A stretch of DNA of 36,733 nucleotides from the NCBI GenBank assembly GCA_939792625.1, contig CALNFG010000002.1:1-36733 (forward strand), read 5' to 3'. Positions within the stretch are counted from its first letter, which is position 1, and every line of letters begins with the position of its first letter. The translations under genes and the position numbers were made by a program. Source of the DNA: an uncultured Prevotella sp. Its GTDB lineage: Bacteria; Bacteroidota; Bacteroidia; Bacteroidales; Bacteroidaceae. Under the pieces are notes generated by a model that saw only the letters and a program-made list of their open reading frames with translations, was not told where the DNA came from and did not search any database. This document shows, one piece after another, positions 1,431 to 3,258 of the stretch.

Positions 1431-1438
1431 TATCTTTG
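1431..1438 (+). promoter_or_regulatory. Bacteroidetes -7 box (TATCTTTG) for an intergenic transcript
   Basis: TATCTTTG matches TAnnTTTG; a TTG lies upstream at about 1408-1411, so spacing is only approximate. Confidence 0.6.
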
Positions 1439-1444
1439 CATCGT

Positions 1445-1784
1445 CAAAACAATACAATAGGTATTAGTAAAGACTCAGATAATAGGTATTAAGTTATAAG
1501 GTAAAGTAGGTAAAAGGATTGTTATAAAGACAGGATAACGCTCATGCCGCGAGGCACGGCTTAAAAGTTTTCATAGGTAATAAGGTAAAAAAGATTTGTT
1601 TAGGTAACAGATGTTCAAAACCCTGTTTGCTGTTTAGAACAGCAACAGGTTTCGGGGGTGAGGAAAGCATAGAATGGTAAAGATGACACAGCCTCCGTGT
1701 TTTGTTAAGAGATTAAGTTCAGATTTAATGTTGATACATAGGTCGGACGGCAACCACGGAATGATGGTTGCCGTCCGTTTTTTT
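1445..1784 (+). ncRNA. Putative ~340-nt intergenic non-coding RNA with repeated AGGTA motifs
   Basis: Bounded by a -7 box and a strong Rho-independent terminator; no convincing ORF; AGGTA at 1459, 1484, 1499, 1508, 1575, 1583 and 1602; GNRA hairpin TGCC-GCGA-GGCA 1545-1556; long hairpin 1618-1652. Confidence 0.6.
1744..1784 (+). terminator. Rho-independent terminator
   Basis: CGGACGGCAACC-acggaatgat-GGTTGCCGTCCG followed by TTTTTTT. Confidence 0.93.
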
Positions 1785-1830: not shown

Positions 1831-3258
1831 ATGTTTTCAAGCGATAAGGATAATGCCCTGCTTGCGATGATACGCAACGGCAGCGAGATGAACGGCAGTC
1901 AGAAGCTGCATCTTATAGTGCAACTGAGTATTCCCTCGATACTTGCACAGCTCACAACGATAATGATGTTCTACATCGATGCCTCAATGGTAGGCTCGCT
2001 CGGCGCAAAAGCGTCGGCGTCAATAGGTATTGTGGAGTCTACCACGTGGCTTTTCGGCGGACTTACGTCGGCCGCGGCACTGGGCTTTTCGGTGCAGGCG
2101 GCTCACTTCATCGGTGCCAACGACTTTATGAAGGCACGCCAGGTGTTCCGTCAGGGCATTATGGCCACGTTGCTGTTTACCGTCATCCTCACATCTGTCT
2201 GTGTGATGATAGCCGGTCCGTTGCCCCGCTGGTTGGGCGGCGGAGAAGACATTCATGCCGACGCCTCGGCCTATTTCACTATTTACTGTCTGGCTCTGCC
2301 CGTATATCAGATAGGCATACTCTCGTCGAGCATGCTCAAATGTTCGGGCAACATGCGCATACCCAGCATGATGAGCATACTGATGTGTCTGCTCGACGTG
2401 GTGTTCAATTATTTTCTCATTTATGAGACGCGTCCCGTCAGTCTGTTCGGCACGACGTTCACCATGCCCGGTGCCGGCATGGGTGTGCCCGGTGCGGCTC
2501 TCGGCACGGCCCTTGCATATACCGTCACGGGGGCACTGCTGGTGTGGTTTGCCACGGTCAGGTCGCCCGAACTGTCGCTGCGCGGCGAGAAGTGGACGTT
2601 CGCCCCGTTGTGGAACTATCTGCGCAATGCCGCAAAGGTCAGTCTGCCGATGGGCGCGCAGTACATGATGATGAGCGGTGCCCAGATAGTAAGCACCATG
2701 ATAGTGGCTCCTTTGGGCAACATCGCCATTGCTGCCAATACTCTGGCCATCACCGCCGAGAGCCTGTGCTACATGCCCGGTTATGGTATAGGCGATGCCG
2801 CCACCACGCTGGTTGGCCAGAGCATCGGTGCCGGGCGTCCGCGTCTGGCCCGCAGTTTCGCATTCCGCACGGTTGGCATGGGCATGCTTGTCATGGCCTT
2901 GATGGGTGCGGTGATGTATGTTTTCGCGCCGCAGATGATAGGCGTGATGACCCCTGACGAACAGGTACGCCTGCTCGGGGCACAGTCGTTGCGCATAGAG
3001 GCATTTGCCGAGCCTATGTTCGCTGCGGCCATCGTCACTTACAGCGTATGCCTCGGTGCGGGTGACACGCTTGTGCCTGCCTGCATGAATCTGGCCAGCA
3101 TGTGGCTGGTGCGTCTAACGCTCGCGGCATGGCTTGCGCCTGTTTACGGTCTGCGTGGCGTCTGGATGGCAATGGCCGTGGAGCTGACTTTCCGCGGCAC
3201 GATATTCCTTGTGCGTCTGTTCCGCGGCAGATGGATGAAGAAGTCGTTCAGCAGTTAA
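1831..3258 (+). CDS. MATE family efflux transporter
   Basis: 475-aa polytopic membrane protein with duplicated MATE-like halves (LSIPSILAQLTTIMMFYIDASMVGSLGAKASASIGI...GIGDAATTLVGQSIGAGRPRLA). Start may be downstream (ATG 1867 or 1888) because the -7 box is very close. Confidence 0.9.
   Translation: MFSSDKDNALLAMIRNGSEMNGSQKLHLIVQLSIPSILAQLTTIMMFYIDASMVGSLGAKASASIGIVESTTWLFGGLTSAAALGFSVQAAHFIGANDFMKARQVFRQGIMATLLFTVILTSVCVMIAGPLPRWLGGGEDIHADASAYFTIYCLALPVYQIGILSSSMLKCSGNMRIPSMMSILMCLLDVVFNYFLIYETRPVSLFGTTFTMPGAGMGVPGAALGTALAYTVTGALLVWFATVRSPELSLRGEKWTFAPLWNYLRNAAKVSLPMGAQYMMMSGAQIVSTMIVAPLGNIAIAANTLAITAESLCYMPGYGIGDAATTLVGQSIGAGRPRLARSFAFRTVGMGMLVMALMGAVMYVFAPQMIGVMTPDEQVRLLGAQSLRIEAFAEPMFAAAIVTYSVCLGAGDTLVPACMNLASMWLVRLTLAAWLAPVYGLRGVWMAMAVELTFRGTIFLVRLFRGRWMKKSFSS

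Follow-up and report, generated by a model that had tools for sequence, protein, structure and literature searches.

A candidate multi-site sponge for a BTnc060-type small RNA in a Prevotella-like bacterium

The window analysed here, i.e. the whole stretch of 36,733 nt of DNA, carries a cluster of AGGTA motifs in the gap between two protein-coding genes, which raises the question of what such a repeated motif is for. A preliminary description had seen in the gap a candidate non-coding RNA and suggested that the repeats could dock an RNA-binding protein, for example one with an RRM domain, the RNA acting as a sponge or scaffold. We computed the anatomy of this RNA, hereafter the window RNA, and the following features were recognized in and around it.

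601 to 1233, + strand: upstream neighbour, an FKBP-type peptidyl-prolyl isomerase gene (PF00254, E=2e-16)
1408 to 1438, + strand: promoter of the window RNA, read from the sequence as TTG at 1408-1410 and a -7 box TATCTTTG at 1431-1438
1412 to 1427, strand not applicable: palindromic operator-like site CTGTGTGCGCAAACAG, overlapping the promoter spacer
1442 to 1784, + strand: window RNA, its start placed from the -7 box; it has a promoter, a terminator and seven orthologues that share no ORF
1545 to 1556, + strand: GNRA hairpin TGCC-GCGA-GGCA, kept in the seven orthologues
1622 to 1649, + strand: long hairpin CCTGTTTGCTGT...ACAGCAACAGG, near-invariant in the seven orthologues
1652 to 1698, + strand: 3' stem, UCGGGGGU at 1652-1659 with GCCUCCGU at 1691-1698, from the alignment of orthologues
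1744 to 1784, + strand: intrinsic terminator, a 13-bp stem at 1744-1777 followed by T7
1831 to 3258, + strand: downstream neighbour, a MATE transporter gene (PF01554, E=1e-51)

The -7 box, the GNRA hairpin and the terminator thus lie where they had been proposed, and the long hairpin, previously given as 1618-1652, is present and is best drawn at 1622-1649. The strand of the window RNA folds better than shuffled sequences (z -2.9). Full-length orthologues were found in only seven of 300 genomes of the genus, the window's own copy included; in their alignment the motif zone, the GNRA hairpin, the long hairpin and the 3' stem are conserved, and the promoter is kept as well. The outer pair of the GNRA hairpin is changed on both sides in one orthologue and broken in another (n=7), and the 3' stem shows one compensatory pair together with several one-sided changes that preserve pairing. 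Covariation in the long hairpin is uninformative because the hairpin hardly varies. A coding mini-ORF was rejected, since none is common to the seven orthologues. The RNA is directly followed by the MATE gene (MFSSDKDNALLAMIRNG...) in the window and in five of the six other orthologues, and for the remaining one (G267) no downstream ORF is listed. Judging from the sequence, the MATE gene has an apparent separate promoter (TAATTTTG at 1819-1826); therefore, the window RNA is probably not a MATE leader.

The window contains no match at the gathering score of any Rfam family, 6S RNA, tmRNA, RNase P and SRP RNA included, and relaxed thresholds gave chance-level matches only. Among the candidates, the FopS sRNA (RF04319) was rejected for positions 1697-1787, where it scores 20.3 bits (E=1.2, i.e. 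chance level) against a gathering score of 56 bits. The window RNA, presumably expressed, is a stand-alone non-coding RNA of a Prevotella-like bacterium, flanked by two ordinary genes, and its description as an independent RNA with repeated motifs conserved in relatives is borne out by the seven orthologues.

AGGTAW occurs at 1459, 1484, 1499, 1508, 1575, 1583 and 1602, always on the + strand. These seven copies within 1451-1610 are far above chance, as had been claimed, dinucleotide shuffles giving 0.70 copies each and at most four (2000 shuffles). The motif extends beyond AGGTA, and three kinds of it can be distinguished: AATAGGTATTAGT, AAGGTAAAAARGATTG and AGGATAAC. That the motifs are unpaired agrees with the consensus fold of the seven orthologues, in which the motif zone is open except for the GNRA hairpin, and only partly with the single-sequence calculation, where the unpaired probabilities of the AGGTA sites are 0.42-0.84 and the mean of the RNA is 0.43.

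A genome-wide search by clusters of three AGGTA was swamped by unrelated repeats, such as AAAGGTAAGCTTTCG runs in the window's own genome, and was rejected. As a separate observation, this genome (G000) contains dispersed intergenic AAAAGGTAAGCTTTYGC runs with a spacing of 22 bp on many contigs (e.g. L066-L090); they form an unrelated repeat family and are the source of most AGGTA triples there. The first homology search found about 30 relatives that have only the promoter block in common with the window, i.e. the palindrome CTGTGTGCGCAAACAG and the -7 box. Many of these promoters are followed by further AGGTA-rich RNAs, in which the words AGGTATTAG, AAGGTAAAAAGATT and AGGATAAC recur, and related AGGTA-array RNAs are also present in other Prevotella.

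Of 60 genomes of the genus, 57 contain the word AAGGTAAAAAGATTG, in one to three copies each (reversed control, 0), and most of its occurrences belong to one element whose opposite strand is a small RNA gene. In the gene, a -7 box is followed by GTTATCCTGAAWACAATCTTTTTACCTT-n-CTAATACCTATTGA and this by a terminator hairpin, and the RNA comes in two forms within the genus, GAAAAC and GAATAC. In the window's own genome the sRNA is about 91 nt long and lies on contig 12 at about 2997-3087. Its 48-nt 5' region is unpaired and nearly invariant, and 12 of 12 terminator pairs show compensatory changes, which together argue for a genuine RNA gene whose seed region is protected. The distribution is wide: a 29-nt core (up to three mismatches) was found in 85 of the 151 Bacteroidaceae genomes searched, representing 21 of the 30 genera sampled, the named carriers including Bacteroides, Phocaeicola, Segatella and Hallella. 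In several genomes a type-2 sRNA gene (L132, L133, L134, L400) is divergent to, and adjoins, an apparent glutaminyl-tRNA synthetase-like gene.

Copies of the sRNA were not listed by Rfam at the gathering threshold; using E-values, the copy of the own genome matches the full-length model of BTnc060 (RF04184) with 82.5 bits (E=1e-11), and that of B. gallinarum matches part of the model with E=1e-30. As 82.5 bits is below the curated gathering score of 228.9 bits, we call the sRNA of the own genome a BTnc060 homologue and not a member of the family. It has the BTnc060-type architecture, with a terminator hairpin after a conserved 5' block that is unpaired, and the block GUUAUCCUGAAAACAAUCUUUUUACCUUA...CUAAUACCUAUUGAA is nearly identical in both; unlike the sRNA, the RF04184 model extends about 120 nt further upstream and takes in an apparent promoter. 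BTnc060 is the counterpart of the partner sRNA, not of the window RNA. Our literature search found no paper on the function of BTnc060 or on the sequences of the window RNA or the sRNA.

The AGGTA motifs are reverse complements of the 5' half of this sRNA (CAATAGGTATTAGT, AAGGTAAAAAGATTG, CAGGATAAC). Each of the three motif kinds corresponds to a segment of its own in the sRNA, with extended matches of 9-16 nt, and at 1481-1539 they follow one another as expected; one pair of counterparts is the array word AGGTATTAG and the sRNA segment CTAATACC. Calculated duplex energies place the sites at 1455-1470, 1480-1513, 1500-1543 and 1571-1612, and the sites can be described as follows.

1455 to 1468, + strand: sRNA site 1, CAATAGGTATTAGT, 14 nt, exact complement of the own sRNA
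1481 to 1515, + strand: sRNA site 2, AATAGGTATTA at 1481-1491, TAAGGTAAA at 1497-1505 and AGGTAAAA at 1508-1515; duplex of -26.4 kcal/mol in 1470-1514
1500 to 1543, + strand: sRNA site 3, AGGTAAAAGGATTGTT...CAGGATAACG, the strongest single duplex (-34.0 kcal/mol), overlapping site 2
1571 to 1612, + strand: sRNA site 4, AGGTAATAAGGTAAAAAAGATTTGTTTAGGTAAC, -24.6 kcal/mol, exact 8-mers covering 1581-1596

Seed complementarity to the sRNA of the same genome exceeds chance. Exact 8-mers complementary to the first 48 nt of the own sRNA cover 67 nt of the window RNA, compared with 6.4 nt (maximum 28) in 300 shuffles, and the complementarity is restricted to the 5' half, the terminator half giving 0 nt and the reversed sRNA 8 nt. 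The best total duplex energy is -42.8 kcal/mol, while that of shuffles averages -21.2 and reaches -33.3 at the minimum. Several sRNA sites are retained in all seven orthologues. The sRNA was found by a search with a motif word from the related arrays, so that part of the match reflects selection; the test was therefore repeated without the 15-nt segment, and 15 arrays from 15 genomes, each against its own sRNAs, still gave 453 complementary nt compared with 30 (maximum 93) in shuffles. Most of these 15 RNAs resemble the window RNA in this respect; without the 15-mer, two of them (L019 and L027) do not reach significance on their own. In the set compared for co-variation of array and seed, one genome (G048) whose array bears AGGTATTA has the changed seed CTAGTACC, and this array contains one AGGTACTA; a single genome is too little to count. 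Beyond the genus, array RNAs of B. gallinarum, B. pyogenes, B. ilei and S. copri have 58-118 nt complementary to BTnc060, compared with 13-26 nt in shuffles, and for a further S. copri candidate (L405) the complementarity is not significant. By these calculations, the window RNA very probably base-pairs with the BTnc060-type sRNA.

This result bears directly on the proposed protein ligand. A protein, of the RRM type or other, that binds the AGGTA repeats and is titrated by the RNA in a CsrB-like way would suit a short motif repeated in a weakly structured RNA, and RbpB of B. thetaiotaomicron prefers a related motif, GUAGGAUA (PMC12119571); the Bacteroidaceae group has been reported to be without Hfq, ProQ and CsrA (PMC12119571). 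Among genomes from other families of the order, nine of 16 encode an RRM_1 protein, as does the Bacteroides control, yet none of 24 genomes of the same genus does (G000-G023, the own genome, 78% complete, included), and RRM docking was rejected for the genus. Binding of any protein would also leave the extended matches to three segments of one sRNA unexplained, and such a ligand is very unlikely. Since the repeats appear to be base-pairing sites for a Bacteroidaceae-wide sRNA, they probably soak up the sRNA and do not dock a protein. The earlier idea of a "sponge or scaffold" points in a fitting direction, and its RRM ligand is not supported; the extended sequence of the motif is explained by complementarity to the sRNA.

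Complementarity at several sites fits both a sponge and a multi-site target, and does not by itself separate the two directions. We infer, with a probability of roughly two in three, that the window RNA is a multi-site sponge for the BTnc060-type sRNA. Its three to four degenerate copies, each the reverse complement of the sRNA 5' half, would, when the RNA is made, pair with several copies of the sRNA; the pairing would divert the sRNA from mRNA targets having a AAGGTAAAAGATTG-type site at their start regions, i.e. would act as a titrating sponge, and a single transcription factor acting via the promoter palindrome would set both the sRNA and the array RNA.

The main rival is that the array RNA is a target of the sRNA or a relic mRNA leader, with many sites for tight control and a hydrophobic peptide of 25-30 aa as its original product. 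Some of the AGGTA-rich RNAs of relatives are followed by hydrophobic ORFs of this size, and as arrays precede such an ORF in several relatives, some of them may be 5' leaders. Similar promoters and arrays stand before mini-ORFs such as MNMTMIVAMCAVMVASAILFENTIEKK in L006, L009-L011 and L366, and the ATG of the mini-ORFs is adjoined by AGGATAAC or GGTAAAAAGATG. However, the seven orthologues of the window RNA have their 3' helices in common and no ORF, they end before the apparently independently promoted MATE gene, and control of one start codon needs fewer than seven motifs; for the window RNA we consider this explanation unlikely. The hydrophobic ORFs at L366, L006, L009, L010 and L011, downstream of the AGGTA arrays, end in FENTIEKK, and the one that was tested has no Pfam or NCBIfam match.

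Start regions of mRNAs are the usual place for sRNA targets. We searched 40 genomes of the genus with the reverse complement of the sRNA 5' region, and below the sRNA genes themselves the list contains single sites overlapping mRNA start regions. The candidate targets include an apparent ABC transporter ATPase, found in several genomes (AAGGTAAAAGATTGTTTTCATG), a protein with an MGS domain (Pfam PF02142) and putative MFS-like transporter and DapDH-like proteins; a 34-aa ORF (L373) is the candidate from the own genome. Some weaker matches are at chance level (E near 1), and the list is one of candidates only. The ORF at L373 (G000, contig C155) and that at L355 (G024) represent a conserved short ORF of 34-39 aa with NYGRVN near its end, the sRNA-complementary sequence lying at or just before the start codon; the copy tested has no Pfam or NCBIfam match.

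The roles could also be reversed, the AGGTA RNA being an active FopS-like regulator of start regions that contain UACCU and the BTnc060-type sRNA its decoy. The R1' seed of FopS (PMC11697453) resembles AGGTATTAG..AAGGTAA and pairs with BTnc060 at -16.8 kcal/mol, as good a value being reached by two of 1000 shuffles. However, the widespread and nearly invariant partner is the sRNA and not the array, and the matching start regions bear the AGGTA side, i.e. they would pair with the sRNA; a reversal is thus highly improbable. Apart from this, the complementarity of the FopS seed to BTnc060 means that BTnc060 might titrate FopS in Bacteroides.

The shared transcription factor of the sponge reading can be considered from the promoters. 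In most type-1 sRNA genes of Prevotella, a palindrome like the operator of the array, TTGTGTGSSCACACAA, starts at -80 to -83, the likeness between sRNA and array operators being judged by eye at 12 of 14 positions. Many type-2 sRNA genes of Prevotella have ATGTTWTTWAACAT at -60, and Bacteroides sRNA genes carry ATGTTATAAGACAT. Palindromes of the matching kind are found upstream of the arrays in S. copri (TGTGTGCGCACACA), Prevotella G019, B. gallinarum and B. ilei, and TGTGTGCGCAAACANNNGTANNTTTGC (up to two mismatches) occurs in 28 of 60 genomes of the genus (control, 0). The agreement suggests that one transcription factor may set both the array RNA and the sRNA genes. HcpR and Cur (BT4338) sites were considered for the identity of the operator, and no text giving their motifs was found in the literature. 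A promoter with a similar operator (TGTGTGCGCAAAAAG) also precedes an apparent electron-transfer-flavoprotein beta gene in several genomes (L022, L023, L026). Tentatively, and with somewhat less than even confidence, the sponge reading might be extended to a Bacteroidaceae-wide pair, in which a nearly invariant sRNA and fast-evolving tandem-site sponges would share their controlling transcription factor within each lineage (TGTGTGNNCACACA in Prevotella/Segatella, ATGTTATAANACAT in Bacteroides), the dose of the sponge setting the strength of the sRNA.

Sponge pairs of bacterial sRNAs include SroC/GcvB and chbBC/ChiX, and a quorum-sensing sponge RNA has been reported from Vibrio cholerae (PMC9732341). 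The window RNA is probably like them in sequestering an sRNA by base pairing. To our knowledge, SroC/GcvB, chbBC/ChiX and the Vibrio cholerae sponge have one or two sites each; unlike SroC/chbBC-type sponges, the window RNA has its degenerate copies in tandem. RNAs of the CsrB/RsmY type contain many copies of a short motif and titrate the protein CsrA. The window RNA would share with them the many motif copies that titrate a regulator and would differ in that the ligand is an RNA. FopS and GibS (PMC11697453) are, like the window RNA, Bacteroidaceae RNAs with an unpaired seed of the GUAUUAG..UUAAGGU type; FopS, however, is short, has a single seed and has the RRM protein RbpB as its partner (PMC11697453), whereas the window RNA is about 340 nt long, has several sites and belongs to a genus with no RRM protein in the 24 genomes searched.

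Members of the Bacteroidaceae rank among the main bacteria of gut and rumen, and little is known about how their sRNAs are put to use and turned off. For one sRNA of the family, which hardly varies, there are now candidate targets and a natural multi-site candidate sponge, so that the question can be addressed directly in B. thetaiotaomicron, for which genetic and RNA-seq resources are at hand. If the sponge reading is true, tandem-site sRNA sponges would be an unusual bacterial design.
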